Source: Dyella sp. A6
GTDB lineage: Bacteria; Pseudomonadota; Gammaproteobacteria; Xanthomonadales; Rhodanobacteraceae
Direction: 5' to 3'
Assembly (NCBI RefSeq): GCF_036320485.1
Contig: NZ_CP132911.1
Coordinates: 2,418,001-2,482,000, forward strand
DNA: 64,000 nt
Position numbers and translations under genes: made by a program. Shown piece after piece: positions 12,115-33,215 of this stretch. A model generated the notes under the pieces. It worked only from the letters and a program-made list of their open reading frames with translations, had not been told where the DNA came from and did no database searches. Each line of letters begins with the position of its first letter. Positions within the stretch are counted from its first letter, which is position 1.

Positions 12115-12861
12115 TCAGCCCGTGGCGGCGAGCCCGATCCCGCTGTCCGCCGCCTGCGGCTGGCAGCCTTTCACCATGCTGCGGTAATCGCGCGGGGTCA
12201 TGCCCACGGTCGCCTTGAACTGGCGGGCAAAGGCGCTCTGGTCGGCAAAGCCGCAGGCCAGGCCGACGCCGGCAATGCGCTCGTCGCCATGCAGCAGGCG
12301 CATCGCCTCCTCGATCCGCAGCTTGGTCAGCCACTGCTGCGGCGTCACCTGGAAGACCCGCCGGAAATGCCGCTCCAGCTGCGCCACCGAAAGGTTCGCC
12401 AGCTTGGCCATGGTGTGCACGCGCACCGGCTCGGCGTAATGCGTCTGCAGGTAGTCGAGCACCTGGCGCAGGCGGTCATAGGTGGGATGACGGCCATCCG
12501 GCTGCCCCAGGTCGCGCGAGATGCCGACCACGCCGCGCACCTGGTTGCGCTTCACCAGTGGCCGCTTGCAGGTCAGGCACCAGCCGGACGAGCGATTGGG
12601 AAAAATGTGGACTTCGAGCTGGTTGTCGATGGTTTCGCCGGCCAGCACGCGACGATCCTGCATGGTGTAGGAACCGCCCATGCTGGACGGAAACAGGGCA
12701 TCGGCAGTGCTGCCTATGATCTGGTCGCGGCGCTTGAGCCCGAGCCGACGGATCAGGGTCTGGTTGGCATGCGTGTAACGCCCGCCGTCGTCCTTGACGA
12801 AGAAAACGACGTCCGGCAACGCGTCGAACAGGTGCTCCAGTTCATCGGCTGAAATTCTCAT
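12115..12861 (-). CDS. PAS domain AraC-family regulator of the hydroxyproline operon
   Basis: 248 residues. The N-terminal PAS sensor (about 5-120, [29 protein letters not shown]) is followed by a C-terminal AraC-type double helix-turn-helix (about 145-235, [37 protein letters not shown] and [24 protein letters not shown]). It is transcribed divergently from the hydroxyproline operon, whose first gene starts 180 bp away, so local control is likely (inference). AraC-type regulators, such as LhpR in Pseudomonas, control the same pathway elsewhere. A PAS sensor is unusual there; the ligand is unknown. Confidence 0.88.
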
Positions 12862-12886
12862 CGTCGCAGCCCCGTCACGGCTTGTG

Positions 12887-12938
12887 GTTGCAATGCAACA
12901 AATCGCTGTGAGTCGAACATAGCATGCAAATCAGTGCA
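12887..12938. promoter_or_regulatory. Candidate operators in the divergent regulator/operon gap
   Basis: There are two dyads: GTTGCAATGCAAC at 12887-12899 and TGCA-N6-TGCA at 12925-12938, both based on TTGCA/TGCA halves, 26 bp between starts of the TGCA-like cores. They sit between the divergent regulator and epimerase genes. Their role as AraC-regulator sites is inferred from position only. Confidence 0.35.
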
Positions 12939-12964
12939 TTGCGCAAGACCCGGGCGGGCCATTT

Positions 12965-12989
12965 CGACTATGCCGAATTCCGCATCCAA
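12965..12989 (+). promoter_or_regulatory. 25-bp motif shared with the GH127 operon, copy A
   Basis: The core is TGCCGAATTCCGCATCC, preceded by CGACTA. The same 25 bp with one change (A to T in the centre) occurs at 26310-26334 before the GH127 gene. The centre is a near-palindrome (TGCcGAATTCcGCA). It lies 52 bp before the epimerase start. It could be a common operator; a general dispersed repeat is the alternative. Confidence 0.45.
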
Positions 12990-13041: not shown

Positions 13042-13983
13042 ATGCAAACCATCTCCGTCATCGATTCGCACACAGCCGGCGAACCGACCCGCGTCGTCAT
13101 CGGCGGGTTTCCCGACCTCGGCCCCGGCTCGCTGGCGCAGTGCCGGCAGGTTTTCCGCGAACGCCATGATGCATGGCGCAGCGCGATCGCCTGCGAACCG
13201 CGCGGCTCGGACACCATGGTCGGCGCGCTGTTGCTGCCGCCGCGCGACCCCGATGCCTGCGCCGGGGTGATCTACTTCAACAACGTGGGTTACCTGGGCA
13301 TGTGCGGGCACGGCACCATGGGCGTGGTGCGCACGCTGGCGCACCTGGGCCGCATCGGCCCCGGCCGGCACCGGCTGGAGACCCCGGTGGGCACGGTCGG
13401 CGTCGAGCTGCATGACGACGGCCGCATCGTCATCGACAACGTGGAAAGCTACCGCCACCGGCAAGGTGTCACCGTCGAGGTGGCAGGCCACGGCCCGGTC
13501 ACCGGCGACATCGCCTGGGGCGGCAACTGGTTCTTCATCATCTCGCAGGCGCCGGTACCGCTGACGCTGGCCAATGAACGCGAGCTGGCGGCCTACACCA
13601 TGGCGATCCGCGAAGCGCTGGAGCGCGCCGGCATCACCGGTGCGGATGGCGCCGAGATCGATCACATCGAGGTCAACGGAGCGTCGCCCGAAAACCCGGC
13701 GGTGGCGCGCAACTATGTGCTGTGTCCGGGCATGGCCTACGACCGCTCGCCCTGCGGCACCGGCACCAGCGCCAAGCTGGCCTGCCTGGCCGCCGACGGC
13801 AAGCTGGCGCCGGGCCAGGTGTGGCGGCAGGAAGGCATTCTGGGCACCGTGTTCGAAGGCAGCTATCAGCCGGGCGAACGCGGCGTGCTGCCGCGCATTG
13901 GCGGCCATGCGTACATCACCGCGCAGGCGCAGCTGCTGATCGACGACGCCGACCCGTTCGCCTGGGGCATCCGCGCCGGATGA
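13042..13983 (+). CDS. lhpA: 4-hydroxyproline 2-epimerase
   Basis: 313 residues, proline racemase superfamily. It converts trans-4-hydroxy-L-proline to cis-4-hydroxy-D-proline, the first step of hydroxyproline breakdown. The two catalytic cysteines are present: Cys88 in MCGHGTMG and Cys238 in [10 protein letters not shown]. Both being Cys rules out the Ser/Thr-type dehydratase paralogues. The N-terminus [19 protein letters not shown] is that of the family; ATG at 13033 is an alternative three codons upstream. It is the first gene of a tightly packed operon and overlaps the next gene by 4 bp (ATGA). Confidence 0.92.
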
Positions 13984-15107
13984 CGACCCATGGCGCCAGC
14001 TACGACCTGATCGTGGTCGGTGCCGGCATCGTCGGCTGCGCCTGTGCCGAGGCCGCCTCGGCCGAGGGCCTGCGCGTGGCGGTGGTGGAACCGGCGGCGA
14101 TCGGCGGCGGCGCCACCGCGGCGGCGATGGGCCACCTGGTGGCGATGGACGACGACCCCGCCGAGCTGGCACTGACCAGGTATTCGCTGCGTTTCTGGGA
14201 CGCCTATGCCAATCTGCCGGCCGCCGAGTTCAGCCGCTGCGGCACCTTGTGGGTGGCCAGCAACGACGACGAATGCGCAGCCATCGCCGGCCGCATCCAG
14301 CGACTGGCCGCCGCTGGCGTCCATGCCGAGCAACTGGACAGCAAGGCACTGCACGAAGCCGAACCCGAACTCGTTCCCGGCCTGGCCGGCGGCATGCTGG
14401 TACCGGCCGAGGGCGTGGTCTATCCGCCGCGCATGGCACTGCACCTGCTGGGCAGCGCGCAGGCACGCGGCACCCGGCTGTATGCCGGCCGCCGCGTGGT
14501 CGCCCTGCACGACGACGGCGCGACGCTCGACAACGGCGACCGCCTGCACGGCCCGGTGCTGGTGGCGGCAGGCTGCGCCACCCCGACCCTGCTGCCGCAG
14601 TTGCCCGTGCGCGGCCGCAAGGGGCATCTGGTGATCACCGACCGCTACCCCGGCCTGGTGCGACACCAGGTGCTGGAGCTTGGCTATGCCGCCAGCGCGC
14701 ATGGCAGCGACCGCAGCAGCGTTGCCTTCAACGTGCAGCCGCGACCGACCGGGCAGATCCTGATCGGCTCCTCGCGCGAGTTCGACGCCACCGACGACAG
14801 CGTTTCGCGGCCGTTGCTGCGTCGCATGCTGGCCCGCGCCTTCCATTTCATGCCCGCGCTGGGCGAGCTGCAGGCGGTGCGCGTGTGGACCGGATTCCGC
14901 CCGACCAGTCCCGATGGTCGTCCCTACCTGGGTGCCGTCGACGACCGCGACCGATGCTGGGTCGCGACCGGCCACGAGGGTCACGGCGTCACCACCGCGC
15001 TGGGCAGCGCGCGCCTGCTGGTCGACCTGATGCTGGGGCGCACGCCGGCGATCGACCCGACCCCCTACGCCCCCTCGCGGGTGATGGCGCAACAGGTGAC
15101 CGCATGA
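13980..15107 (+). CDS. D-hydroxyproline dehydrogenase, FAD (DAO-type) subunit
   Basis: 375 residues of the D-amino-acid oxidase-like FAD oxidoreductase family. The dinucleotide motif is [19 protein letters not shown] at the N-terminus, and the C-terminal [16 protein letters not shown] and [18 protein letters not shown] segments are FAD-contacting in this family. With the next two genes it forms the three-subunit dehydrogenase that oxidises cis-4-hydroxy-D-proline to 1-pyrroline-4-hydroxy-2-carboxylate (LhpBEF type in Pseudomonas). Its start overlaps the epimerase stop and its stop overlaps the next start (both ATGA), so translational coupling is expected. Confidence 0.88.
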
Positions 15108-15346
15108 AGCCGGTCGTGCTGTACGTCAACGGCCAACCGTTGCAAGTCGCGGCGGGCATCAGCGTGGCCGCCGCGGTGGCCCACATGCAGCTGGCCCTGC
15201 GTCGCTCGTGCAGCGGCCAGCCGCGCGCACCGCTGTGCGGCATGGGGATCTGTTTCGAATGCCGCGTCAGTATCGACGGTGTGGCCCAGCAGCGCTCCTG
15301 CCAGGTGCTGGTGCGCGACGGCATGCAGGTCCGGACCGATGTCTGA
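15104..15346 (+). CDS. D-hydroxyproline dehydrogenase, small [2Fe-2S] subunit
   Basis: 80 residues. Four cysteines in the pattern C-x8-C-x4-C-x2-C (SCSGQPRAPLCGMGICFEC) match the ferredoxin-like gamma subunit found with HcnA/SoxA-type multi-subunit amino-acid dehydrogenases. It would carry electrons between the FAD subunits. It overlaps the preceding gene by 4 bp and the following one by 8 bp, supporting a 1:1:1 complex. Confidence 0.88.
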   Translation: MKPVVLYVNGQPLQVAAGISVAAAVAHMQLALRRSCSGQPRAPLCGMGICFECRVSIDGVAQQRSCQVLVRDGMQVRTDV

Positions 15347-16637
15347 GCCGCGACACTACGACGTGCTGGTGGTGGGTGCCGGCCCGGCCGGGCTGAGTGC
15401 CGCCCGGACTGCCGCCGGACACGGTGCCCGGGTCGGCCTGGTGGACCTGCAGCCGCGCGCGGGCGGCCAGGTGTGGCGGCACGACGTGGCGCATGGCGCA
15501 CCGCGTGCCGCGCGCCAGGCCATCGACCAGCTCAGTGCCGCGGGCGTGGAACTGCTGACCGGCACCCAGGTGGTCGATGCGGAAGCCGGCTGCCTGCGGC
15601 TGGAACGCGGCGACACCACTTTCGACGCCAGCTACTGCGACCTGATCCTGGCCACCGGTGCGCGCGAACTGCTGCTGCCGTTCCCCGGCTGGACCCTGCC
15701 CGGCGTCACTGCCGCCGGCGGCCTGCAGGCACTGGCCAAACAGGGCTTTCCGGTAAGCGGCCGGCGCGTACTGATCGCCGGCAGCGGCCCGCTGCTGCTG
15801 GCGGCGGCGGCCACCCTGCGCCGGCATGGCGCGCAGCTGCTGGGCATCGTCGAACAGGCGCCACGCGCGCAGGTGATGCGCCTTGCCCGCCAGCTCTGGC
15901 GCTGGCCCGCGCGGGCCATGCAGGCATTGCAACTGCAGCTGCAGCTGGCCGACGTGCCGCGCTACTACGACAGTTGCGTCACCGCGGCGCAGGGCCACGG
16001 CATGCTGGAAAGCGTGGAACTGCAGGACGCCGCCGGCACCACCCGGCAGCTGGCCTGCGACCTGCTCGGCGTCGGCTTCGGCCTGCTGCCCAACGTGGAA
16101 CTGGCCGCCCTGCTCGGCTGTGCGCTGGACCCCGATGGCGCGCATCAGCGGGTACGCGTGGACGCCATGCAGCGCACCAGCACCGCACACATCTATGCCG
16201 TGGGCGAAGCATGCGGCATTGGCGGCCTGCACAGCGCCCGGCTGGAAGGCGCGATCGCTGCCCACACCGCCTGTGGCCACGCCACCAGGGCACAGGCCCT
16301 GCTCGAACAACGCGATCGCGCACGCCGCTTCGCCGTCGAACTGACCCGCAGCTTCGCGCTGCAACCGCGCGTGCGCCAGCTGGCCCGGCCGGACACCCTG
16401 GTGTGCCGCTGCGAGGATGTGCCGCTGGGCGCGCTCGACGGTTTCGGCGACGCGCGCGCCGCGAAACTGGCCACGCGCTGCGGCATGGGCGCCTGCCAGG
16501 GTCGCATCTGCGGCGCGGCGCTGGCCGAACTCGGCCACTTTCCCCGCGGCCACGGCCGCCCCCCTGTTTTCCCCGCACGGCTGGCAACGCTGGCCGCCGT
16601 TTCTGGATCCTGCGAACACCACGGAGCCTGTTCATGA
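15339..16637 (+). CDS. D-hydroxyproline dehydrogenase, NAD(P)/FAD-binding subunit
   Basis: 432 residues of the HcnB/SoxA-alpha-like pyridine nucleotide-disulfide oxidoreductase family. It has the FAD motif VVGAGPAGLSAARTAAGHG, a second nucleotide motif (VLIAGSGPLLLAAAATLRRHG) and a C-terminal BFD-like [2Fe-2S] domain with CRCEDV...CGMGACQGRICG. Together with the two genes before it, it makes up the membrane-linked D-hydroxyproline dehydrogenase that feeds electrons to the respiratory chain. It is coupled to the next gene by an ATGA overlap. Confidence 0.87.
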   Translation: MSEPRHYDVLVVGAGPAGLSAARTAAGHGARVGLVDLQPRAGGQVWRHDVAHGAPRAARQAIDQLSAAGVELLTGTQVVDAEAGCLRLERGDTTFDASYCDLILATGARELLLPFPGWTLPGVTAAGGLQALAKQGFPVSGRRVLIAGSGPLLLAAAATLRRHGAQLLGIVEQAPRAQVMRLARQLWRWPARAMQALQLQLQLADVPRYYDSCVTAAQGHGMLESVELQDAAGTTRQLACDLLGVGFGLLPNVELAALLGCALDPDGAHQRVRVDAMQRTSTAHIYAVGEACGIGGLHSARLEGAIAAHTACGHATRAQALLEQRDRARRFAVELTRSFALQPRVRQLARPDTLVCRCEDVPLGALDGFGDARAAKLATRCGMGACQGRICGAALAELGHFPRGHGRPPVFPARLATLAAVSGSCEHHGACS

Positions 16638-17539
16638 GCAATGCCACTTTCTGGCGCGGTGTCATCCCCGCCATCACCACGCCCTTCACCGCCGATGACG
16701 CGATCGACCACGAGTTCCTCGGCCGCCACGCCAACTGGATGGTGGACGCCGGCTGCACCGGCATCGTGCCGCTGGGTTCGCTGGGCGAAGCCGCCACGCT
16801 CGACTTCGACGACAAGGTCGCGATCCTGCGCACCCTGGTCAAGGCGCTCGACGGCCGCGTGCCGGTGATCCCCGGCATCGCCGCGCTGTCCACCCGCGAA
16901 GCGGTGCGCCTGGCCAAGGCCGCCGCCGAGATCGGTTGCGGCGGCCTGATGGTGCTGCCGCCGTACGTGTATTCCACCGACTGGCGCGAGATGAGCGCAC
17001 ACGTGCGCGCCATCATCGAGGCGACCGACCTGCCGTGCATGCTGTACAACAATCCGGTGGCCTACCGCACCGACTTCCAGCCCGAGCAGATCGCCGAGCT
17101 GGCCGCCGCCTACCCGCAGCTGCAGGCGGTCAAGGAATCGTCCGGCGACGTGCGTCGCTTCGCTGGCATCCGCGCGCTGCTGGGCGATCGCCTCGACCTG
17201 CTGGTCGGCATGGATGACGCCATCGTGGAAGGTGCCGCGATGGGCGCTACTGGCTGGATCGCCGGCCTGGTCAACGCTTTCCCCAAGGAGTCCGTGGCGC
17301 TGTACCAGCTCGCCACCGGCAACGGTGCCGATGCCGCCATGCCGCTGTACAGCTGGTTCCTGCCGTTGCTGCGGCTGGACACCGTGCCCACCTTCGTGCA
17401 GCTGATCAAGCTGGTGCAGGCCCAGGTCGGCATGGGCAGCGAACAGGTACGCGCGCCGCGCCTGCCGGTTGCGGGCGCCGAGCGTGACGCCGCGCTGCGC
17501 GTCATCGAACACGCCCTCAGCAACCGCCCGGAGGTCTGA
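16634..17539 (+). CDS. 1-pyrroline-4-hydroxy-2-carboxylate deaminase (DapA superfamily)
   Basis: 301 residues with a TIM-barrel aldolase fold of the dihydrodipicolinate synthase superfamily. The Schiff-base lysine is K167 in AVKESSGD, and GSLGEAATLD is the substrate-binding loop. In hydroxyproline pathways this family member (LhpC/HypD) deaminates and dehydrates pyrroline-4-hydroxy-2-carboxylate to 2-oxoglutarate semialdehyde. Its position between the dehydrogenase and the semialdehyde dehydrogenase makes that role nearly certain. Confidence 0.9.
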   Translation: MSNATFWRGVIPAITTPFTADDAIDHEFLGRHANWMVDAGCTGIVPLGSLGEAATLDFDDKVAILRTLVKALDGRVPVIPGIAALSTREAVRLAKAAAEIGCGGLMVLPPYVYSTDWREMSAHVRAIIEATDLPCMLYNNPVAYRTDFQPEQIAELAAAYPQLQAVKESSGDVRRFAGIRALLGDRLDLLVGMDDAIVEGAAMGATGWIAGLVNAFPKESVALYQLATGNGADAAMPLYSWFLPLLRLDTVPTFVQLIKLVQAQVGMGSEQVRAPRLPVAGAERDAALRVIEHALSNRPEV

Positions 17540-17541
17540 GC

Positions 17542-19134
17542 ATGTCCAGCATGGCTCCTGTCCTGATTGCCGGCAGCTGGCGCCAGGCCAGCGATGCCAC
17601 CGGCCACTTCAACGCCGAGAACCCGACCACCGGCGCCGCCATCGCCGGAGACTTCCCGGTCTCCGGCGCGGCCGACCTGGAGGCTGCGCTGAGTGCCGCC
17701 GTCGACGTCGCCGCCGAACTCGCGGCGACGCCGCCGGAACGCATCGCCGCGTTTCTCGAGGCCTATGCCGATGGCATCGACGCGGCTGCCGATGAACTGA
17801 TCGAACTGGCCCACGCGGAAACCGCACTGCCGCGCGAGCCGCGTCTGGCCAAGGCGGAACTGCCGCGTACCAGCGGCCAGCTGCGCCAGGCCGCCGCGGC
17901 GGTGCGCGGCTACCGCTGGACACAGCCGGTGATCGACACCGCCGCCGGCCTGCGCTCGCACCTGGCACCGCTGCACAAGCCGGTGCTGGTGTTCGGGCCG
18001 AACAATTTTCCGTACGCCTTCAATGCCATCGCCGGCAGCGATTTCGCCTCGGCCATCGCCGCCCGCAACCCGGTCATCGCCAAGGCACATCCCTCGCATC
18101 CGCACACCAGCCGGCGACTCGCCGAGATCGCCCACGCCGCGCTGCTCGCCACCGGCCTGCCGCCGGCCGCGGTGCAGATGCTGTATCACTTCGACAACGA
18201 GCCCGGCCTGCGCCTGTGCGGCGACAGCCGTCTTGGCGCGATCGGCTTCACCGGCAGCCGTGCCGGCGGACTGGCGATCAAGGCCGCCGCCGACCGCGCG
18301 GGCATTCCGGTCTATGTCGAGCTGTCCAGCGTGAACCCGGTGTTCATGCTGCCCGGCATCCTGGCCGAACAGGGCGAGGCTCTGGCCGGCGAGTTCTTCG
18401 CCTCCTGCACCATGGGCAGCGGCCAGTTCTGCACCAACCCGGGCGTGGTGACCGTGCCGACCGGCGCGGACGGCGACGCCTTTGTCGAAGCGGCACGCCA
18501 GCGCTTCGCCGCCGCCTCGCCGTCGGTGGTGTTCTCGCGCGGGGTGCTCGATCACCTGGCCAGCAACGTGGACGTGCTGCGCGCCGCGGGCGCGGACTGC
18601 CTGGCCGGCGGTGCGCGCGGCAACGGTCCCGGCTACGACTACCAGCCGACCCTGCTCAGCGTCGACGCGGCAACCTTCCTGCGCAACCCGGCCGCCCTGC
18701 AAACCGAGGCCTTCGGCCCGACCAGCCTGCTGGTGCGCGCCGCCGACATCGACACCATGGTGGCGCTGGCCGCTGCCTTCGAGGGCAACCTCACCGGCAC
18801 GCTGTACCGCGCCGCCGACGGTCGTGACGACGCGGCCTGGCAGCGCGTGGCAGCGGCGCTGCGGCCGCGTGTCGGGCGCCTGATCGCCAACCGGATGCCG
18901 ACCGGCGTCGCGGTCAGTCCGGCGATGAACCACGGTGGCCCCTACCCCAGCACCGGTCACCCTGGCTTCACCGCGGTCGGCATGCCCGCGGCGATCCGTC
19001 GCTTCGCCGCCCTGCACAGCTACGACCATGTGCCCGACCCGCTGCTGCCGGCCGAGCTGCGCGACCGCAACCCCGGCGGTGTGCCGCGTCTGGTCGACGG
19101 GCACTGGAGCGACGCCGACCTGGAGACGGCATGA
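17542..19134 (+). CDS. 2-oxoglutarate semialdehyde dehydrogenase (NADP+)
   Basis: 530 residues of the aldehyde dehydrogenase superfamily. It carries the catalytic Cys in GSGQFCTNPG, the general-base Glu region VYVELSSVNP and the cofactor segment GPNNFPYAFNAIAGSDF. The long form with these variant motifs is typical of the 2,5-dioxovalerate dehydrogenases that finish hydroxyproline (and arabinose) catabolism by making 2-oxoglutarate. It starts two bases after the preceding stop and overlaps the next gene by 4 bp. Confidence 0.9.
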   Translation: MSSMAPVLIAGSWRQASDATGHFNAENPTTGAAIAGDFPVSGAADLEAALSAAVDVAAELAATPPERIAAFLEAYADGIDAAADELIELAHAETALPREPRLAKAELPRTSGQLRQAAAAVRGYRWTQPVIDTAAGLRSHLAPLHKPVLVFGPNNFPYAFNAIAGSDFASAIAARNPVIAKAHPSHPHTSRRLAEIAHAALLATGLPPAAVQMLYHFDNEPGLRLCGDSRLGAIGFTGSRAGGLAIKAAADRAGIPVYVELSSVNPVFMLPGILAEQGEALAGEFFASCTMGSGQFCTNPGVVTVPTGADGDAFVEAARQRFAAASPSVVFSRGVLDHLASNVDVLRAAGADCLAGGARGNGPGYDYQPTLLSVDAATFLRNPAALQTEAFGPTSLLVRAADIDTMVALAAAFEGNLTGTLYRAADGRDDAAWQRVAAALRPRVGRLIANRMPTGVAVSPAMNHGGPYPSTGHPGFTAVGMPAAIRRFAALHSYDHVPDPLLPAELRDRNPGGVPRLVDGHWSDADLETA

Positions 19135-20336: not shown

Positions 20337-20352
20337 CTCCGAGAAGACTGCC

Positions 20353-23859: not shown

Positions 23860-26214
23860 ATGGACCGTCGCCGCTTTCTGCAAGGCATGGCCACCACCGC
23901 AGCCGTCGGTCTGGCGGCCGGGCGCCCCGGCCGGGCCGGCACCCCCGACGCAACGGCCACGCGTGCCGCGCCACCGCCGATACGCATTCCCAGCGCGCAG
24001 GCGCAGCTCGCCGGGAAGCAGGCGATCGCACGCTTCAGTCAGTCCGGGCAGGACTGGCAGGTGCTGGAAGACTTCAGCCATCCCGACGGCGCGCTGGCCC
24101 TGGTCTGCGGCGACCAGGCCTGCGTGCTGGCCAAGCGCACCGAAGCGGCCTACAGCGAGGCATCCACGCCGTACTTCGGCATGCGCCAGGCCGATATCGC
24201 CCTGGCCGGTGCCGACCTGCTGGCCGACCACCTGCTGAGCCACGGCGAGCCCGACGAGGCGCAGGTACGCCTGGCTGCACCACCGGTGGCCTCGCAGCTC
24301 AACCCGGCGGACTACTACGGACGCCTGCCGTGGACCAGTTTCGTCGGCACCCGCCAGTGCTCCGACACGATGCCGGTGTATACCGCCGGCAGCACGCGTA
24401 CCTACCACGCCGAGCAGGTGTTCGCCGAACTGCACGACGCGGAAAAAGTGGCGCGTCGGCGCGAAGGCCTGCTCGGCGGCTGGCTGCCCGCGGTACACAA
24501 GGTGGTGCCGCTGGACGACGGTCGCTGGTACGACGTACTGGTCTTCGCCGACGTCGATGCCGACGACCGTTTCGTGGTGCAGACCTGGCATCGCACCGCT
24601 CTGGTCGAACACGGCCGGATCAGCCGTGTCGTCTACGGCCACAGTTACCCCAGCTACCCGCCGCGCCGCGAACCGCCGGCGGCCGCCGACTTCTATGCCG
24701 CGCTGCTGCGCTTCCACGATGCCTGGCAGGCCGAACTGGCCGGCGCGGCGGCGACCTCGCTGCCCGTGGCCGGCTGGGACGACATGCCGCGCTTCGCCTT
24801 CGCACGCGAGCTGGTGGTGCGTCCTGGCGGCAGCTACCCGAAGTACGGCGCCGTGGACCGCGACTACTACGGCAACGAGTACGACGGCTTCCAGGACACC
24901 TTCACCAGCTCGCTGTACGCCAACCTGGAATGGGGCCGCTTCGAGCAGGCGGCGGCGGTCCTCGACGAATACTTCACCGACTTCGTCTACGCCGACGGCC
25001 TGATCAACATGCGTGGCCCGGAAACCGGCCAGTACGGCCTGACCCTGTCGCTGCTGGCGCGCTACCTGCACTACACCGGCGACCGCGCGCTGCTGCTGAA
25101 GCACCGCGAAAAGATCCAGGCCACCGCCACGTTGCTGGTGCAGCTGCACGACGAAAGCCTGAAGCTGCCCGATACCGCGCCGGGCCATGGCCTGATCCAC
25201 GGCTGGAACGAATCCGATTCCTGCCTGTTCCCCGACCCCAGCCTGTGGTGGAAGCCGTACTACGCCAACAGTGCGATGGCGGCCCGCGGACTGGCCGACC
25301 TGGCCGCCGTATGGCCGTCGCTGCAACCCGGTGCTGGCGCACAGGCCGCCGACTGGCAACGCCGCGCGAGGATGCTTCGCACGCAGACGGAGCACACGCT
25401 GCGCGCCAATGTCCGCCATGATCTGAGCCCGCCGTATGTCGGCCCACTGCCCGGGGTGAGCTTGACCTTCCGAGAGTCGCTGGCCCACGAACATCCCAGC
25501 GAACAGCAGTGGCCGCACCGCGCGTACGCCGAACTGCTGCAGGCCGACGTGCTGCCGGACGAACTGGCCAACCTGGTGATCGACTGCATGCGCGGCCATG
25601 GCGCGACCAGCATCGGGGTGGTCGCCAACATCGGCCCGGTCGATCCGCATGCGCGCGACATCCTGGGTTTCATCTCCTACGGCTATGCGCAGCAGTTGCT
25701 GCGGCTGGACCGCATCGACGAGTACCTGCTGTTCCTCTACGCGCACCGCCACCATGTGCACACGCCGGGCGGCTGGACCGCGGGCGAGGTGACCGGACTG
25801 GATGGCAGCATGCCGCTGTTCTGCATGCCCGCGCAGATGACCATTCCACTGCTGCTGCGCTGGATGCTGGTCAGCGAGGACAGCGCGGGCGACACGCTGT
25901 ACCTGGGCCGTGCGATACCGCACGCCTGGCTGCACAGCGGCACGTCCATCGCCTGCAGCGCATTGCCCACGCGCTGGGGCAAGACCGGGTTCGCTCTGCA
26001 ACTGCAGGCCGACCGGCACCATCTGCACGGACATGTGGACATGCCACCGGACGCACCCGACAACGCCTGGCTCAGCCTGCGCCTGCCACCGGGCCGGCAA
26101 TGGCGCGAAGTGCGTGCCGACGGACGCGTGCTCGAAGCACATCCACGCGGCGACCGCTTCAGGTTGCCGCGACATGCCACCGGACGACTGACGATCGAGG
26201 CCGCCCTGGCCTGA
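23860..26214 (+). CDS. Tat-exported (alpha/alpha)6-barrel hydrolase-like protein
   Basis: 784 residues. The N-terminus MDRRRFLQGMATTAAVGLAAG is a twin-arginine signal. The middle (about 340-620) has features of six-hairpin glycosidases: EYDGFQDTFTSSLYANLEWGRF, DGLINMRGPETGQYGLTLSLLARYLHYTGD and GLIHGWNESDSC. The C-terminal part is predicted beta-rich. I cannot assign a CAZy family. Its place before the GH127 gene suggests a periplasmic glycosidase acting on the same polymer. It starts 142 bp after the permease, beyond a hairpin. Confidence 0.65.
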   Translation: MDRRRFLQGMATTAAVGLAAGRPGRAGTPDATATRAAPPPIRIPSAQAQLAGKQAIARFSQSGQDWQVLEDFSHPDGALALVCGDQACVLAKRTEAAYSEASTPYFGMRQADIALAGADLLADHLLSHGEPDEAQVRLAAPPVASQLNPADYYGRLPWTSFVGTRQCSDTMPVYTAGSTRTYHAEQVFAELHDAEKVARRREGLLGGWLPAVHKVVPLDDGRWYDVLVFADVDADDRFVVQTWHRTALVEHGRISRVVYGHSYPSYPPRREPPAAADFYAALLRFHDAWQAELAGAAATSLPVAGWDDMPRFAFARELVVRPGGSYPKYGAVDRDYYGNEYDGFQDTFTSSLYANLEWGRFEQAAAVLDEYFTDFVYADGLINMRGPETGQYGLTLSLLARYLHYTGDRALLLKHREKIQATATLLVQLHDESLKLPDTAPGHGLIHGWNESDSCLFPDPSLWWKPYYANSAMAARGLADLAAVWPSLQPGAGAQAADWQRRARMLRTQTEHTLRANVRHDLSPPYVGPLPGVSLTFRESLAHEHPSEQQWPHRAYAELLQADVLPDELANLVIDCMRGHGATSIGVVANIGPVDPHARDILGFISYGYAQQLLRLDRIDEYLLFLYAHRHHVHTPGGWTAGEVTGLDGSMPLFCMPAQMTIPLLLRWMLVSEDSAGDTLYLGRAIPHAWLHSGTSIACSALPTRWGKTGFALQLQADRHHLHGHVDMPPDAPDNAWLSLRLPPGRQWREVRADGRVLEAHPRGDRFRLPRHATGRLTIEAALA

Positions 26215-26274
26215 CCATCCCTGCCCCCAGATGCCGGATATTCACCCCAACAGGTGACGATAAACATAACCAAA

Positions 26275-26286
26275 TAGACGTCTAGA
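26275..26286. promoter_or_regulatory. Overlapping palindromes upstream of the GH127 gene
   Basis: TAGACGTCTA (26275-26284) overlaps GTCTAGAC (26279-26286) in an unusually A/T-rich stretch. It looks like a dimeric repressor site. The half-sequence AGACGTCT equals a MetJ box, but no methionine gene is nearby. Function unknown. Confidence 0.3.
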
Positions 26287-26309
26287 CACCTATTACATGG
26301 ACACATCGA

Positions 26310-26334
26310 CGACTATGCCGTATTCCGCATCCAA
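26310..26334 (+). promoter_or_regulatory. 25-bp motif shared with the hydroxyproline operon, copy B
   Basis: The core is TGCCGTATTCCGCATCC, preceded by CGACTA, identical to 12965-12989 at 24 of 25 positions. It lies 130 bp before the GH127 start. Confidence 0.45.
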
Positions 26335-26464
26335 CACCGGCAAATGACACAAGACGTATCGAGCATGTAACGGCAGGATGAAAGCATGGGGTCACACCCG
26401 TTCCATACGCCAGTGGTGACGTCACCACGTGTCCCACGGCCATCCAACATGTTGGGGGAGCAAC

Positions 26465-28420
26465 ATGCACGATGCGGAAAACCATCGCAGGCGATTCATC
26501 AAGGGCACGGCCACTGTGCTGGCTTCTGCGTTTGCGGTGCCTGCTGCGCGTGCATTCGTTCCCGACACGGCAGGCACCAGCGCGACCTCCACGAATGATG
26601 CCGTAGCCTCGCGAGAGCAACCGGTGAAGCGCATGCACGGTTTCAGCCTGAACCAGGTGCGCCTTCTCGACAGCGAGTTCGCCACCCAGGCCGAAATCAA
26701 CCGTCGCTACCTGCACAGCCTGCCGGTTGACCGTCTCGCCCACAACTTCCGTCTCCAGGCAGGCTTGCCCAGCCAGGCCAGGCCGCTGGGTGGCTGGGAA
26801 AAGCCCGACTGCGAACTACGCGGCCATTTCAGCGGCGGCCACTACCTTTCCGCGGTGGCACTGGCCTATGCCAGCCATGGCGACACCGTACTGAAGGAAC
26901 GCGGCGATGCACTGGTAGCCATCCTCGCTGCCTGCCAGCAGCCGAACGGCTATTTGAGCGCCTTCCCGGAAAGTTTCTTCGACCGTCTCAGCCGCGGCCA
27001 GAAAGTCTGGGCGCCGTTCTACACCATCCACAAGATCCAGGCCGGCATGCTCGATATGTACCAGCATGCCGGCAACGCACAGGCGTTGAAGGTAGCCACC
27101 GGTATCGGTGACTGGTTGGTGCACTGGCTCAACGGGTTTTCCGATACCGAGATGGCGCATATCGAGAAGACCGAGTTCGGCGGCATCAACGAGTCGATGT
27201 ACAACCTGTACGCGATCACCGGCAACGGTCGCCACCTTGAAGCCGCGCACCGCTTCGACCAGGCATCGCTGCTCGATCCGCTGGCGGCCCATCGCGACGA
27301 ACTGAAGGGACTGCACAGCAACACGCAAGTGCCCAAGATCATCGGCGCCGCCCGCCGCTACGAGCTGACCGGCGAGCCACGCTACCGGCGGATCAGCGAG
27401 TTTTTCTGGGAAACGGTGACCGGCGAACGCACCTATGCCACCGGCGGCTCCAGCAACGACGAGTTCTGGAAGACCGGCCCGGGCGACCTGAAAGGCCAGC
27501 TGGGCCTCTACGCCGCCGAGAGCTGCGTGGCCTACAACCTGCTCAAGCTGACCCGTCACGTATACGAATGGAACGGCGATCCGCGCGCCTTCGACTACTA
27601 CGAGCGCACGCTCTACAACGCGCGCCTGGGCACCCAGGACGAGAACGGCATGAAGCTGTACTACTACCCGCTGCAGGCCGGCGCCAACAAGTACTACAAC
27701 ACGCCATTCGATTCGTTCTGGTGCTGCACCGGCACCGGCGTGGAAGAGTTCGCCCGCTTCAACGAAAACATCTATTTCCGCGAAGGCACGGACCTCTACG
27801 TTAACCTGTTCATCCCCTCGGAACTCGACTGGCCGGAACAACAGCTCAAGCTGCGCCAGGAAACCGGTTTTCCGCGTGAGCCGCGGACCCGGTTCGTGCT
27901 CGCGCTGGGCAAGCCCATCACGATGGCGCTGAACCTGCGCATTCCCGAGTGGATCGGTCCCGACGCCGCCGTGCGGGTGAATGGCGAGACGCTGGATGTC
28001 TTCGCTTCGCCCGGCAGCTACCTCACCCTGCGCCGCGAGTGGCGCGACGGCGACCGCATAGAGCTGGACTTGCCGATGACCCTGCGCAACCAGCCACTGC
28101 CCGGCGACGACAGCCTGCGCGCGGTGCGCTACGGACCGCTGGTGCTGGCCGCACAACTGGGCGGCAAGGGACTGACCCATGCCATGCAGTACGCGGGCAT
28201 GTGGGCGGCGCCGGACCCTGAACCCAAACCGCAACCGGCGCCGCGCGTGGCGATGACCTCGCCGCGGCAGATGGACTGGCTCAAAGCCGCCGACACGCCA
28301 CTGAGCTTCACCGCCAGCACCCTCCACGGCGAGCTGCCGGTGGTGCCGGTCAACCAGATCAAGCACCAGCGCTACGCCGTGTACTGGCAGACCGAAATGG
28401 CTGCCGCCGGCGAAAGCTGA
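26465..28420 (+). CDS. GH127 beta-L-arabinofuranosidase
   Basis: 651 residues from ATG at 26465, preceded by GGGGGAG. It has a twin-arginine signal (NHRRRFIKGTATVLASAFAVPAARA). The catalytic zinc-cysteine set of HypBA1-type enzymes is present: Glu352 and Cys354 in AESCVAYN, Cys420-Cys421 in FWCCTGTGVEEFARF (the first is the nucleophile by homology). Known family members release L-arabinofuranose from beta-arabino-oligosaccharides linked to hydroxyproline in plant extensins. A Tat export signal places it in the periplasm. The GH121 partner (HypBA2) seen in some bacteria is not in the window. Confidence 0.87.
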   Translation: MHDAENHRRRFIKGTATVLASAFAVPAARAFVPDTAGTSATSTNDAVASREQPVKRMHGFSLNQVRLLDSEFATQAEINRRYLHSLPVDRLAHNFRLQAGLPSQARPLGGWEKPDCELRGHFSGGHYLSAVALAYASHGDTVLKERGDALVAILAACQQPNGYLSAFPESFFDRLSRGQKVWAPFYTIHKIQAGMLDMYQHAGNAQALKVATGIGDWLVHWLNGFSDTEMAHIEKTEFGGINESMYNLYAITGNGRHLEAAHRFDQASLLDPLAAHRDELKGLHSNTQVPKIIGAARRYELTGEPRYRRISEFFWETVTGERTYATGGSSNDEFWKTGPGDLKGQLGLYAAESCVAYNLLKLTRHVYEWNGDPRAFDYYERTLYNARLGTQDENGMKLYYYPLQAGANKYYNTPFDSFWCCTGTGVEEFARFNENIYFREGTDLYVNLFIPSELDWPEQQLKLRQETGFPREPRTRFVLALGKPITMALNLRIPEWIGPDAAVRVNGETLDVFASPGSYLTLRREWRDGDRIELDLPMTLRNQPLPGDDSLRAVRYGPLVLAAQLGGKGLTHAMQYAGMWAAPDPEPKPQPAPRVAMTSPRQMDWLKAADTPLSFTASTLHGELPVVPVNQIKHQRYAVYWQTEMAAAGES

Positions 28421-28633
28421 ACCCGCGAGCGCGTCACGCGCGCTCAAAACACCTGCGGCAAGGCCCGTTACGGGTCTTGCCGGGGGACGACGGCACCGGG
28501 CCCGGTGCGCCGCGCTTGCGCGAACGATGTCCCTCAAAGAGCTATCTGCGGCGTCTCCCCGCAGCTTTCGCGTGCCCCGCAATCGCCCCACGCCCCAACG
28601 CTCCGTCAACCCCACCCCGCTGAGGAAACGTCT

Positions 28634-31570
28634 ATGTTTATGGACAAACGCGATACCCGAATCCACGCTTCTCCCTCCATCGCCTCCCGACATGCGCGCC
28701 GGGCGCTGAGCCATGCCATCCACGGCGCCTTGATGTTGTTCCTGCTGGCCGGCACCGGCACCCTGCATGCCCAGGACAACGGCACGACCGATACCAGCAG
28801 CAAAGGCGCTGACGTCAAAAAGGCGAAGAATCTGGAAGCCGTCACCGTCACCGGTTCGCGTATCCGCCGTGTCGACGTCGAGACAGCCAACCCCGTGGTC
28901 ACCCTCGACCGGACCGCGATCGAGGACACAGGCAAGCCGACCCTGGGCGACCTGGTGCAGGAGCTGCCCTCGATCGCGGGCAACGCCACCAACCCCTATA
29001 CCAACAACGGCGGCGGCACCGGCGCATCCACCGTCTCGCTACGCGGCTTGGGCGACAAGCGCACGCTGATCCTGGTCAACGGTGTGCGCCTGGCCTACAA
29101 CGACATCAATGCGATTCCCGCCAGCATGATCGAGCGGATCGAAGTCCTCAGCGACGGCGCCTCGGCGGTGTACGGCTCTGACGCGATCGGCGGCGTGGTG
29201 AACTTCATCCTGCGCGATCATTTCGACGGCGTGCAGGTATCCGGCGATTACGGCACCAGCTCGCGCAGCGATGCCAACCGCCGCAATTTTTCCATCACCG
29301 CCGGCCACACCGGCAGCAACTACAGCGTGATCGGCGGTCTTTCCCGCAGCAGCATCGATGCGTTGTCCGCCGGCTCGCGCAGCTATTCGAAGGACGCGCT
29401 CTACCTGATCGACGGACAGACGGTGAAGGAAGGTTCGTCGGCGACCCCTTATGGCTCGATCAGCTTCAATGACGGCTCGGCGGCATCCACCGCACTGGCG
29501 ACTGCCAACGGGTGCTCGCGGGTCACGCTCAACCATGGCGTCAGCGGCACCGCCAGTGCCGGCGATTTCCACTGCTACAACTCCAGCAGCGACTCGTACA
29601 ACTACCAGCCCTACAACCTGCTGCAGACACCGCAGAAGCGCACCAACGCATTCCTGCTGGCCAAGTACCAGATCAGCGACAACGTCTCGGCCTACCTCAA
29701 CACGTACTTCAGCCAGACCAAGTCCTCGTCGGTGATCGCGCCCGTCCCGATCTTCGCCAACGGCGACAACTTCCTGGTTTCGGCCAACAGCTACTACAAC
29801 CCGTTCGGGGTCAACTTCGGTACCGACCGCAGCACCGGCACCTCGTACAACGACCTCAACACCCGCCTGACCGTGCTCGGCAACCGAAGCTACGAATACA
29901 CCACCGACAACCTGCAGGTGAATCCGGGCCTGCGCGGCAACTTCGGCGACAGCTCCTGGCAGTGGGATGCCGACATCAACTACGGTCGGGTCAGGCAGAC
30001 CTCGATCAACTACGGGTTCCTGAACTACGCCAAGTTCGAGCAGGCCATCGGCCCCTCGTTCATGGATACCGACGGGGTGGTCAAATGCGGCACCCCCGGC
30101 AATGTGATCAGCAGTTGTACGCCGCTGAACATCTTCAACATCAACGACGCATCCAACCTTTCCACGCTGCAGTCGATGGTGGTCAACCCCAGGTTCAGCA
30201 GTGTCTATACCGTCAAGCAGGTGGAAGCCAATGCCAACGGCGACCTGTTCGATCTGCCTGCCGGTACGGTCAGCCTGGCCACCGGACTGTCGTATCGAAA
30301 GGAAAGCACCTCGAGCCAGGCCGATGCGCTGTATACCGCGGACGAGAACGGCCTGTGCGGCGTGATCGAATTCTGCGCCTCGAACCTGGCCGGCAGCTTC
30401 AACGTCAAGGAAGCCTATGCCGAGGCGCTGGTGCCGCTGCTGGCCGATCTGCCGGGCGTGCGCTCGCTGAACATCACCGTAGGCACGCGCTGGTCGGACT
30501 ACAGCACCGTGGGCAGCAAGACCAACAGCAAGCTGGCGCTGGAATGGCGCCCGATCGACGACCTGCTGCTGCGCGGCACGGTGTCCCAGGTATTCCGTGC
30601 CCCGAACACCAGTGAGCTGTATGCCGGCGTGGCCGGCGACGCCGCCACCGTCAACGATCCCTGCAACGGTTACACCGGTGGCCATGCGGCAGCCTGCGCC
30701 AACGTACCCACCAACGGCAGCTATCAGCAGGCCGACGGCCAGATCTCCGGCAAGGTCTCGGGTGCCGTGGTGGCCGGGTACCAACTCAAGCCGGAGACCG
30801 GTCGCTCGTATGACTTCGGCTTTGTCTATGACCCGCACTGGCTGGAAGGCCTGTCGGTGAGTGTGGACAACTGGCGGATCGACCTGCAGGACACGATTTC
30901 CACGGTGTCCGCGCAGACCGTGCTCAACCAGTGCTACGCCAACTCGGCCAGCGCGTTCTGCGCCCTGATCCACCGCAATGGCAATGGCACGATCAACTAC
31001 GTCGCCGAGCCGACGGTGAACCTTGGCAAGCTGTGGGTCGCCGGCACCGATTTCTCGGCCAACTACAAGTTCGCCAGGACCGACTACGGCCGCTTCATCG
31101 CCAGCCTCAACGGCACCTACATGAAGCGCTACGACATCAACCCGGACACCACCGACCCCAGTTCGGTGGTCATCCGCAACGCCGGCATCTACACCTATGC
31201 CTACGGCAACTTCCCGCGCTGGCGCGGCCTGGGAACGCTAAGCTGGGCACGCGGCCACTGGAGCGCCTCCTGGCAGATGCGCTACATCGGCAAGACCCAG
31301 ATCGGCAGCTCCGACCCGGCCCAGGGCCTGTCCGCCGATTACGATATAGCCAATGCCGTGCGCAAGATCGGTGCGGTCGTCTACCACAACCTTCAGGTGG
31401 GCTACGACTTTGCCCGCTGGCATACCAAACTCCAGCTGGGTGTGGACAACCTGACCGACAAGCAACCCTCGCTGTACTACGCCAACAATGTCACCAACGC
31501 CAACACGGATGTCGCCACCTACGACCTGCTGGGGCGTTATTACTGGATGCGCGCCACGGTGAAATTCTGA
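28634..31570 (+). CDS. TonB-dependent outer-membrane receptor
   Basis: 978 residues from ATG at 28634 (GAGG site). A long N-terminus with a signal sequence (HGALMLFLLAGTGTLHA) is followed by a TonB box region (LEAVTVTGSRIRR), a plug domain (about 65-200, KRTLILVNGVRL, EVLSDGASAVYGSDAIGGVVNF) and a 22-strand barrel ending in aromatic residue F (VKF). It lies between two glycosidase genes, 213 bp after GH127, so it most likely imports arabinosylated or galactosylated oligosaccharides or glycopeptides. No STN signalling domain, hence not a transducer. Confidence 0.92.
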   Translation: MFMDKRDTRIHASPSIASRHARRALSHAIHGALMLFLLAGTGTLHAQDNGTTDTSSKGADVKKAKNLEAVTVTGSRIRRVDVETANPVVTLDRTAIEDTGKPTLGDLVQELPSIAGNATNPYTNNGGGTGASTVSLRGLGDKRTLILVNGVRLAYNDINAIPASMIERIEVLSDGASAVYGSDAIGGVVNFILRDHFDGVQVSGDYGTSSRSDANRRNFSITAGHTGSNYSVIGGLSRSSIDALSAGSRSYSKDALYLIDGQTVKEGSSATPYGSISFNDGSAASTALATANGCSRVTLNHGVSGTASAGDFHCYNSSSDSYNYQPYNLLQTPQKRTNAFLLAKYQISDNVSAYLNTYFSQTKSSSVIAPVPIFANGDNFLVSANSYYNPFGVNFGTDRSTGTSYNDLNTRLTVLGNRSYEYTTDNLQVNPGLRGNFGDSSWQWDADINYGRVRQTSINYGFLNYAKFEQAIGPSFMDTDGVVKCGTPGNVISSCTPLNIFNINDASNLSTLQSMVVNPRFSSVYTVKQVEANANGDLFDLPAGTVSLATGLSYRKESTSSQADALYTADENGLCGVIEFCASNLAGSFNVKEAYAEALVPLLADLPGVRSLNITVGTRWSDYSTVGSKTNSKLALEWRPIDDLLLRGTVSQVFRAPNTSELYAGVAGDAATVNDPCNGYTGGHAAACANVPTNGSYQQADGQISGKVSGAVVAGYQLKPETGRSYDFGFVYDPHWLEGLSVSVDNWRIDLQDTISTVSAQTVLNQCYANSASAFCALIHRNGNGTINYVAEPTVNLGKLWVAGTDFSANYKFARTDYGRFIASLNGTYMKRYDINPDTTDPSSVVIRNAGIYTYAYGNFPRWRGLGTLSWARGHWSASWQMRYIGKTQIGSSDPAQGLSADYDIANAVRKIGAVVYHNLQVGYDFARWHTKLQLGVDNLTDKQPSLYYANNVTNANTDVATYDLLGRYYWMRATVKF

Positions 31571-31582
31571 TCCATCGCGTCA

Positions 31583-31608
31583 AGGCGGCCGGCCATGGCC
31601 GGCCGCCT
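31583..31608. repeat. 26-bp perfect palindrome between receptor and glycosidase genes
   Basis: The arms read AGGCGGCCGGCCA and its exact complement, with no loop. It starts 12 bp after the receptor stop and ends 17 bp before the next start codon. It may stabilise the 3' end of the receptor message or attenuate read-through. Confidence 0.55.
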
Positions 31609-31625
31609 CGGGAACCCATAGCAAA

Positions 31626-33215
31626 ATGACAGTACGAACCTGCGTCCGCCCCCTGCTGGGCGTCCTCCTGGCGGCCTCGGCCTTTTTGGCCCAGGCCGGC
31701 GAGCCTCCGCAACTGGTCCATCACGATGGCCGTTTCGCCCTGATGGTGGACGGCCGGCCATTCACCGTACTGGCGGCGCAGCTCAACAACTCCAGCGCCT
31801 GGCCGGACGTGCTCCCGGAAGTCTGGCCCGCAGTCGAGGCCGTGCATGCCAACACCGTCGAGGCACCGGTGTACTGGGAACAGTTCGAACCCCGGCCGGG
31901 CCAGTTCGACTACACCAACATCGATGCGCTGGTCACCCAGGCCCGCGCTCACCACGTGCACCTGATCCTGCTGTGGTTCGGCACCTGGAAGAACGGCCAG
32001 ATGCACTACGTGCCCACCTGGATCAAGGACGACCCGACGCACTACCCACGCATGCTGGACGCCGATGGCCAGCCGATCGAAGTGCTCTCGCCCTACTCGG
32101 CCGCCAACCTGCAGGCCGACCGCACGGCCTTCGTCGCGCTGATGAAACACCTGCGTGCGATCGACGGCGACCGCCATACGGTGATCATGGTGCAGGTGGA
32201 GAACGAACCCGGTGCCATCGGCACCGTGCGCGACCACGGCGCTGCCGCCGACCGCGCGTTCGCCGGCCCGGTGCCGACGACGCTGGCACAGGCGCTGCAC
32301 AAGCCGGCCGGTTCGTGGCGCCAGTTGTTCGGCGCCGATGCCGCCGAAGCCTTTGCCGCCTACGGCATCGCCGATTACATCCAGCAGGTGGCGGCCGCCG
32401 GCAAGGCGGTGTATCCGCTGCCGATGTACGTCAACACCTGGCTGCGCTACAAGGGCAAGCACCTGCCCGGGATCGACTACCCCAGCGGCGGCGCCACCTG
32501 GAACGTGCTGGACATCTGGAAGGCGACGGTGACCTCGATCGACCTGATCGGCACCGACCTGTACACCGACGACTATCACGAGTTCACCCGCGTGGTCGGC
32601 CAGTACCACCGCCCGGACAACCCGAGCTGGATCTCGGAAACCGGCTTCGAGGCGGGCACGGCGAAGTTCCTGTTCTACATCCTGGGCAAGGGCGGCATCG
32701 GCTTTTCCACCTTCGGTGTCGACGGCCACGACACCGACGCTGCCGGCAAGGCAGCCAGCCAGGCCTATGCGCGCAACTACGGGGCCATCGGCGCGATCGA
32801 CCGCATCGTGGCGTCAGCCGCCTATGAGGGACGTCTGCAGGCCGTGGTCGAGCAGCGCGGCCAGCCGAAGCGCGTGTTGCGTTTCGGTCACTGGCGGATC
32901 GATGTGTCGTTCGGCGCGCCAGCCTGGGGCGACGCACCGCCGATCCTGGCCGGCAACCCGCACGACAACGGCCACGTGCTTGTCATACAGCTTGACCCGC
33001 ACACCTTCCTGGTCACCGGCTTCCATGCCCGCGTCGAGTTCAAGCGCACGGCGCAGGACGGCCGCCGCGGCCAGCTGTTGCGCGTCGAGGAAGGCGATTT
33101 CGAGCATGACGGTCGCTGGCATTCGCGTCGCTGGCTCAATGGCGACCAGACCGACTACGGCCTGAATTTCGGCGACGACAGCCGGCTGCTGAGGGTCACG
33201 GTCGGCAGCTACTGA
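31626..33215 (+). CDS. GH35-like beta-galactosidase (DUF5597 type)
   Basis: 529 residues with a Sec signal peptide (ending LAQAGE). A TIM-barrel domain carries YWEQFEPRPGQFDY, the acid/base motif MVQVENEPGA and the probable nucleophile Glu in PSWISETGF. The C-terminal part resembles DUF5597. Related enzymes are beta-galactosidases. Arabinogalactan proteins carry galactan chains on hydroxyproline, so this suits the neighbouring GH127 and hydroxyproline genes (inference). It is followed by a terminator. Confidence 0.83.
   Translation: MTVRTCVRPLLGVLLAASAFLAQAGEPPQLVHHDGRFALMVDGRPFTVLAAQLNNSSAWPDVLPEVWPAVEAVHANTVEAPVYWEQFEPRPGQFDYTNIDALVTQARAHHVHLILLWFGTWKNGQMHYVPTWIKDDPTHYPRMLDADGQPIEVLSPYSAANLQADRTAFVALMKHLRAIDGDRHTVIMVQVENEPGAIGTVRDHGAAADRAFAGPVPTTLAQALHKPAGSWRQLFGADAAEAFAAYGIADYIQQVAAAGKAVYPLPMYVNTWLRYKGKHLPGIDYPSGGATWNVLDIWKATVTSIDLIGTDLYTDDYHEFTRVVGQYHRPDNPSWISETGFEAGTAKFLFYILGKGGIGFSTFGVDGHDTDAAGKAASQAYARNYGAIGAIDRIVASAAYEGRLQAVVEQRGQPKRVLRFGHWRIDVSFGAPAWGDAPPILAGNPHDNGHVLVIQLDPHTFLVTGFHARVEFKRTAQDGRRGQLLRVEEGDFEHDGRWHSRRWLNGDQTDYGLNFGDDSRLLRVTVGSY

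Follow-up and report, generated by a model that had tools for sequence, protein, structure and literature searches.

Hydroxyproline-rich glycoproteins (HRGPs) form a glycosylated nitrogen store in plant cell walls, and the conversion of 4-hydroxyproline (Hyp) to alpha-ketoglutarate by an epimerase, a dehydrogenase, a deaminase, and an aldehyde dehydrogenase is an established pathway. Several described bacterial systems resemble parts of the locus examined in this study, which lies in a 64,000-nucleotide stretch of the complete 3.72-Mb chromosome of Dyella sp. A6 (NZ_CP132911.1, positions 2,418,001 to 2,482,000; hereafter called the window). What is said of these systems refers to the portions of the published articles that were available. 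The Xanthomonas euvesicatoria enzymes XeHypAA, XeHypBA2, and XeHypBA1 (glycoside hydrolase families GH43, GH121, and GH146; PMC6085000, PMC10850190) act on Hyp-linked arabinose. Activity on Araf-beta-Hyp has been proven for XeHypBA1, and the products of XCV2729 (GH121), XCV2728 (GH43), and XCV2724 (construct to residue 791) take Ara4-Hyp to Hyp (PMC6085000). A Bifidobacterium longum cluster for Hyp-arabinoside degradation carries HypAA, HypBA2, and HypBA1 together with an ATP-binding cassette (ABC) transporter (PMC7263609). The 4-Hyp operons and HypR regulons share with our locus the epimerase and the enzymes that follow it (PMC5343134, PMC4113996), and a Xanthomonas xyloglucan locus likewise brings TonB receptors together with GH35 and other glycosidases (PMC8245568). 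In addition, extensin use by Latescibacteria has been predicted from GH127, without a locus (PMC4454575), and two further articles name the arabinobiosidase (PMC7933510, PMC10145562).

The locus (positions 12115-33215 of the window) comprises a Hyp operon (13042-23717) followed by genes for exported glycosidases and a TonB receptor (23860-33215), and we consider it likely that these constitute a two-unit locus for feeding on plant HRGPs of the extensin type. An initial annotation had proposed that glycan removal and Hyp catabolism are combined here. Domain searches recovered all of the elements it named (the Hyp pathway, a prolidase, a DUF885 protein, a permease, hydrolases with twin-arginine translocation [Tat] motifs, a TonB receptor, and a GH35 enzyme), and its central idea is now supported by the linkage of the two units in relatives, by a promoter box common to both, and by a GH121, GH43, and GH146-type set in Xanthomonas-type genomes. 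Its left boundary calls for an adjustment: the pathway is present, but position 12115 itself belongs to a minus-strand regulator gene and the pathway lies outside that gene.

The same annotation had asked whether the two blocks are placed randomly in relatives, and they are not. We searched 197 genomes of the window's family (Rhodanobacteraceae), 299 genomes of the order, and 398 genomes of the phylum; the second family of the order is called Xanthomonadaceae here from its members. Among the 197 family genomes, and with E limits that differ between the genes, the gene for a PF07944 glycosidase (the GH127-type gene, 26465..28420 on the plus strand; E ≤ 1e-60) is matched in 25, with 23 matches at 61% identity or above and two at 40%. 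The epimerase (13042..13983, plus strand; E ≤ 1e-40) is matched in 71, and a gene for a 784-amino-acid protein that we call unk784 (23860..26214, plus strand; E ≤ 1e-10) in 15. The GH127-type gene lies within 8.3-16.1 kb of the epimerase gene on the same contig in 21 of its 25 genomes, and unk784 is 9.6-14.0 kb from the epimerase in 15 of 15. The four unlinked matches are in G093 (no epimerase), G193 (genes on two contigs), and G053 and G068 (the 40% matches, on other contigs). At the level of the order, unk784 is present in 29 of 299 genomes, and all 18 occurrences in the second family are within 29.6 kb of the epimerase. GH121 is present in 16 of 299, and in 14 of these its distance from the epimerase is at most 37.1 kb (exceptions: G416, on two contigs, and G068, on another contig). 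These counts led us to reject a chance neighborhood: the linkage of Hyp and glycosidase genes exceeds chance and recurs across genera and two families.

The sugar-stripping block is accessory, and the Hyp operon is the commoner part, mostly present in genomes without a GH127-type gene (47 family genomes have the epimerase and no GH127-type match). At three sites that lack the block (L104, L107, and L113), the permease gene, whose product is 26-27% identical to that of the window, is followed directly by genes for an ELFV-type dehydrogenase and a GT2 protein. The latter two genes lie downstream of the GH35 gene in the window, where, as in G124 and other genomes, the block sits between the permease and ELFV genes. 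Because the permease adjoins the ELFV and GT2 genes in the former sites and flanks the block elsewhere, gain or loss of the block has occurred at a single fixed position.

The two units also share a promoter element. A box of the form TTRTGCnRAWTTCCGCAT, or a close variant, precedes the epimerase gene in the loci of both families in which that promoter is covered, at 56 bp from the ATG in the window (box 1, CTATGCCGAATTCCGCAT, 12968..12985, plus strand) and at about 60-85 bp from the match start in relatives. A matrix was built from the epimerase promoters of 20 relatives (13 distinct sites), with the window excluded. With this matrix, box 1 scores 28.8 bits, and the second-best place in the window is box 2 (CTATGCCGTATTCCGCAT, 26313..26330, plus strand; 22.4 bits), located 134 bp upstream of the ATG of the GH127-type gene. 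No other non-overlapping site in the 64 kb exceeds 9.8 bits, and the mean best score in 200 simulated 64-kb sequences (first-order Markov) was 13.0. A pattern fitting both sites has two exact matches in the 3.72-Mb genome, the two boxes, and one single-mismatch match, with none for a reversed control. A loose pattern allowing three mismatches gave no excess in the window (59 matches versus 58.8 expected).

The distribution of the box in relatives follows the two units. It stands before the GH127-type gene with a score of at least 19 bits in 20 of the 23 close orthologs (window included), and the best score inside or behind these orthologs is 10.1. It also precedes the epimerase in all 20 of the fetched Hyp operons without GH127 (at least 20.5 bits; 20 of the 47 such genomes). 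In the second family, G404 has a weaker form of the epimerase box (20.6 bits). Unlinked GH146-type genes have reverse-orientation boxes in G053 (20.5 bits, some 330 bp upstream of the match) and, more weakly, in G068 (18.2 bits, about 416 bp upstream). No box precedes unk784 in the window (-1.4 bits), and 4 of its 15 family orthologs have one of at least 19 bits. In the second family, the box occurs before unk784 in 11 of the 13 promoters examined (weaker in G418, none in G404; the near-identical G343 and G391 are counted separately, and G377 is not among the 13). On the strength of the observed box, the epimerase unit and the GH127-type unit are taken as one regulon with a presumed inducer. 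A consensus scan of positions 22000-34000 was uninformative, with no sigma-70-like site and seven terminator-like sites versus 6.2 expected.

The reader of the box is probably the adjacent AraC-family protein with a PAS_4 domain (12115..12861, minus strand; PF12833, PF08448), which is encoded divergently from the Hyp operon. Among the 20 fetched Hyp operons without GH127, 16 have an ortholog next to the epimerase, and 11 of the 13 genomes checked for the protein contain it; the exceptions, G082 and G093, also have no epimerase. No GntR regulator of the HypR type is present at the operon, where the adjacent regulator is the AraC/PAS protein; no search was made for a GntR gene farther away.

Two further observations on the box were made elsewhere. 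It precedes the DUF885 gene in two genomes (G052:C1:157938 in L054, 20.9 bits; L105 of G136 at 9326, 25.8 bits), which suggests a place for DUF885 in the same regulon. In L106 (G032), a Hyp operon lacking the GH127-type gene is followed by a gene for another TonB receptor (26% identical), and two strong boxes at 6621 and 6755 (30.2 and 28.3 bits) lie about 300 and 430 bp before this receptor gene.

The Xanthomonadaceae version of the locus is larger and contains enzymes with described counterparts. It spans 41-44 kb in G250, G343, G391, and G401, with the gene order AraC, epimerase to aldehyde dehydrogenase, M24, two DUF885, and permease, followed by a DPP4-type peptidase, GH35, unk784, a TonB receptor, GH121, GH43, a second DPP4-like protein, a second TonB receptor, and a long-type PF07944 protein. 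Most of this arrangement is found in G347, where GH35 and the second DPP4-like protein are unmatched and the long PF07944 gene has changed places with the gene for the last TonB receptor. G400 and G418 carry the Hyp genes, GH35, unk784, a TonB receptor, and the long PF07944 gene, with GH121 and GH43 unmatched. The GH121 protein of G401 matches the solved HypBA2 structure (6m5a) with an E value of 2.8e-200. The gene order of G343 and its 791-amino-acid frame, counted from the first ATG, fit XCV2729-2728-2724, a comparison made with the description of the published genes rather than with the named genome. A set like that of X. euvesicatoria lies within this locus in Xanthomonas-type genomes, with the Hyp pathway 21-37 kb from the arabinoside enzymes.

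This arrangement bears on a question raised in 2018. X. euvesicatoria is reported to be unable to use L-arabinose, and it was asked why its Hyp-arabinoside enzymes are kept (PMC6085000). Since the Hyp pathway is in the same locus, the simplest answer would be that Hyp and peptide are the nutrient, and the gene content suggests that these are the food behind the Xanthomonas enzymes. One could instead suppose that arabinose and galactose are the food and that Hyp catabolism just clears a by-product, given that the homologous B. longum enzymes supply arabinose to the cell (PMC6085000). Xanthomonas-type genomes nevertheless retain the locus despite the reported inability to use this sugar, and the Hyp operon is the commoner unit, often without a GH127-type gene (71 versus 25 of 197, at the different E limits), so we regard this explanation as improbable. 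The published work also noted an adjacent prolyl oligopeptidase pseudogene and suggested that the enzyme genes are perhaps useless now or disappearing.

A role in plant contact, in which the locus would bypass HRGP-based wall defense rather than provide nutrition, has been brought into view by the finding that xehypBA2-AA is HrpX dependent and upregulated in infected plants (PMC6085000). Yet single and triple deletions left disease and the nonhost response unchanged in the same study, and genomes of Rhodanobacter, Luteibacter, and Dyella carry the linked set. This role is the least probable of the explanations considered here, and very improbable in absolute terms.

Returning to HRGP feeding, the PF07944 protein is the window's candidate for removal of Hyp-linked arabinose. 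It carries a Tat motif, the domain scores above its cut-off (389.8 bits), and residues E333, E352, C354, C420, and C421 are conserved in all 32 aligned sequences. The roles of these residues (acid/base Glu, nucleophile Cys, and Zn ligands) were taken from PMC10850190 and placed by hand on the alignment. Domain and key residues together identify a protein of the clan GH-P cysteine beta-L-arabinofuranosidase type, and this activity is predicted accordingly. The initial annotation had named a GH127 enzyme here. The Tat-motif PF07944 glycosidase is indeed present, but it looks GH146-like rather than GH127 proper, the latter being rejected because the protein scores higher against GH146-type chains. 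The best solved match is 5opj (327 bits), followed by 8k7y (207), 4qjy (95), 5mqo (61), and HypBA1 (38), a comparison by bit scores in which the family labels of 5opj, 8k7y, and 5mqo are our assumption; 5opj we take to be the GH146 enzyme BT0349. The window protein is 39% identical over 589 residues to the likely XeHypBA1 counterpart of G343 and 40% identical to that of G418.

The second exported enzyme candidate, unk784, has the Tat motif RRRFLQG and no match in Pfam or NCBIfam (CAZy itself was not searched). A profile comparison with solved chains gave 9vmj, called TeGH116, as its best match, at an E value of only 0.29. The AlphaFold2 model (pLDDT 82.9, pTM 0.88) resembles many (alpha/alpha)6-type glycosidases in fold, at about 10% identity among the matches listed. 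The model thus points to an (alpha/alpha)6-barrel glycosidase, an assignment of fold and not of activity. A relationship to GH121 or to GH146-like proteins was considered and found no support in profile comparison: the GH146-type comparison matched the Tat motif only, and the GH121 alignment comprised three rows. The absence of GH121 from the best 50 structural matches is uninformative.

The unit is completed by a TonB-dependent receptor (28634..31570, plus strand; PF00593, PF07715) and by a GH35 beta-galactosidase with a signal-peptide-like N-terminus (31626..33215, plus strand; PF18120, PF01301). The latter matches NF051902 at 497.3 bits, just below the cut-off of 500, and the solved structure 8faa with an E value of 8e-221; it could act elsewhere than on a Hyp glycoprotein. 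In four of the 13 loci of the window's family (G006, G052, G078, and G106), a GH27 alpha-galactosidase gene lies inside the block. Extensin serine carries alpha-galactose, and the presence of GH27 therefore fits an extensin-type substrate. Separately, a GH27 alpha-galactosidase is encoded about 6 kb before the window and about 19 kb from the Hyp epimerase (C1:2411644-2412597; L068:13007-14281) and is 53% identical to the GH27 within a relative's locus; in G117 (L109), a GH27 gene (51%) adjoins the AraC gene.

The Hyp operon, all on the plus strand, contains the genes of the pathway, with a family-level assignment for the epimerase (NF010577, 451.6 bits, cut-off 442). The steps that follow are predicted from fitting Pfam domains and a gene order that is largely constant in relatives, with no NCBIfam equivalog above cut-off for the D-Hyp dehydrogenase, deaminase, or semialdehyde dehydrogenase. 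The predicted D-Hyp dehydrogenase comprises a D-amino-acid dehydrogenase-like flavin adenine dinucleotide (FAD)-dependent subunit (13980..15107, PF01266), a 2Fe-2S subunit (15104..15346, PF13510), and an FAD/NAD(P) oxidoreductase subunit (15339..16637, PF07992). A DHDPS-family protein (16634..17539, PF00701) is the predicted deaminase from its domain and operon position, and an aldehyde dehydrogenase (17542..19134, PF00171; best solved matches 1eyy and 3v4c) is the predicted alpha-ketoglutarate semialdehyde dehydrogenase. Next come an M24 prolidase (19131..20336, PF00557 and PF01321), likely cytosolic since no signal peptide was seen, a DUF885 protein with a signal-peptide-like N-terminus (20353..22125, PF05960, 516 bits), and an APC amino acid permease (22149..23717, PF13520). 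The M24 and DUF885 proteins have solved-structure relatives, that of the former being the proline dipeptidase 4r60 (E value of 4e-177). DUF885 is a domain of unknown function in Pfam, and "exported peptidase" is an interpretation.

From these parts, we propose the following scheme, in which the substrate, direction of flow, glycopeptide import, induction, and regulator are inferred. The TonB receptor would take glycopeptide pieces into the periplasm. There, removal of the last Hyp-bound arabinose would fall to the Tat-exported GH146-like enzyme and that of galactose to GH35, joined by GH27 in some relatives, and unk784 would cleave elsewhere in the glycan. The bared peptide would be cut by the DUF885 protein and, in Xanthomonadaceae, also by the DPP4-type peptidases. 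Hyp or small peptides would then enter the cell through the permease, with X-Hyp dipeptides split by the prolidase. Alpha-ketoglutarate would finally be formed from Hyp by the successive action of the epimerase, the dehydrogenase subunits, the deaminase, and the aldehyde dehydrogenase. Both units would be switched on through the 18-bp box upstream of each, presumably read by the AraC/PAS protein.

However, several observations weigh against this proposal. No GH121 match was found in the window's genome at E 1e-60, and the usual three- and four-arabinose chains may for this reason not be removable in the window species. The four GH43 (PF04616) matches in this genome all lie outside the window. 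Lacking a GH121 match and a linked GH43, in contrast to the three-enzyme system of X. euvesicatoria, the window appears to hold a reduced version of the locus; its substrate may be chains already trimmed in part, or the corresponding work may be done by unk784. As to the box, the maximum score in the simulated sequences was 22.33 bits, barely under box 2, and the pattern fitting both sites was composed after both window sites had been seen. Sites before the GH127-type gene are weak in G006 (16.3), G133 (13.0), and G092 (11.0). The AraC gene is away from the epimerase in G104, G125, G022, and G069, and in G104 and G125 it is on another contig, though both boxes persist. In G068, GH121, GH43, and GH146 are on a different contig than the Hyp locus, as is the 40% GH127-type match in G053. 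Finally, G093 has a GH127-type gene and box without an epimerase or AraC ortholog, and this gene (L052 / L044) adjoins genes for GH27, GH31, a gluconolactonase, 2-keto-3-deoxy-galactonokinase, and a dehydratase; a relocated copy is possible.

In the phylum sample, unk784 occurs in three of 398 genomes: the window's own, G625, and G757. In G757, a member of another class, unk784 (50% identical) lies in a 17.7-kb stretch with genes on both strands that also encodes a long PF07944 protein, DUF885, GH35, M24, a permease, D-amino-acid dehydrogenase-like and DHDPS-like proteins, and a TonB receptor with 27% identity. The 4-Hyp epimerase in this stretch belongs to another NCBIfam type (NF010578, 496 bits against a cut-off of 376) and shares 35% identity with that of the window. 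Such a resemblance in gene content despite the change of epimerase type argues for function over history. On the opposing side, the G757 locus has no box, and no Hyp genes were found in the 34 kb around unk784 of G625 (only 8 kb of it upstream), where the adjoining gene is weakly DPP4-like, or in the Bryobacterales relatives L049 (17.9 kb) and L050 (13.9 kb).

The sugar-acid neighbors of the G093 gene are also what might be expected if the glycosidase unit served a plant polysaccharide (pectic arabinan, arabinogalactan, or xyloglucan) and stood beside the Hyp operon by history only. In the same direction, the closest solved relative of the PF07944 protein, 5opj, is, if it is indeed BT0349, active on arabinan pieces (PMC10850190), and a Xanthomonas GH35 acts on xyloglucan (PMC8245568). 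We nonetheless judge this explanation unlikely, although less so than the two alternatives above, given the linkage across two families and the similar set in one other class, the common box that also precedes Hyp operons without the block, and the Hyp-arabinoside-type GH121 and GH43 in the same Xanthomonadaceae locus.

Two other genes of the window encode an M61 glycyl aminopeptidase-type protein (3568-5571, minus strand) and a 1,336-amino-acid protein in which B12-binding, MeaB-type GTPase, and acyl-CoA mutase domains are fused (7785-11795, minus strand) and which looks like IcmF.

HRGP feeding thus remains our preferred reading, under which this locus would cover both the glycan and the Hyp halves of glycoprotein use in a single bacterial locus. 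A bolder form of it seems to us about evenly balanced between right and wrong: that an extensin-type protein is dismantled completely, sugar and imino acid, under one Hyp-responsive switch, that unk784 is the first member of a new glycosidase family whose target is Hyp-linked glycan, and that the locus supplies the missing purpose of the Xanthomonas HypAA, HypBA2, and HypBA1 enzymes. The two exact box copies in one genome would make a testable regulon, unk784 would be an uncharacterized glycosidase-like family with an obvious substrate class, and the genes could serve as a marker set for finding glycoprotein-feeding bacteria.

A literature search, with most subscription journals outside its coverage, returned no paper in which a single locus combines GH121, GH127, or GH146 with Hyp catabolism. 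As far as the available text goes, the published account of XeHypAA, XeHypBA2, and XeHypBA1 includes neither the Hyp pathway nor TonB receptors, unk784, or the box, and the words epimerase, TonB, and galactosidase do not appear in that of PMC6085000, to whose 2018 question the locus offers a direct answer. For the B. longum cluster, the sugar is the nutrient and Hyp catabolism goes unmentioned in the text available (PMC7263609). The Xanthomonas xyloglucan locus has a polysaccharide target, and the word hydroxyproline is absent from the text of PMC8245568. The closest published idea is the HypR regulon of Alteromonadales, in which collagenases, prolidases, and a TonB transporter form the upstream protein source (PMC5343134). 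In the portion available, that system concerns the collagen side, has a GntR regulator, and makes no mention of glycosidases, whereas the window has a predicted plant glycoprotein as its substrate and an AraC/PAS protein as its candidate regulator.

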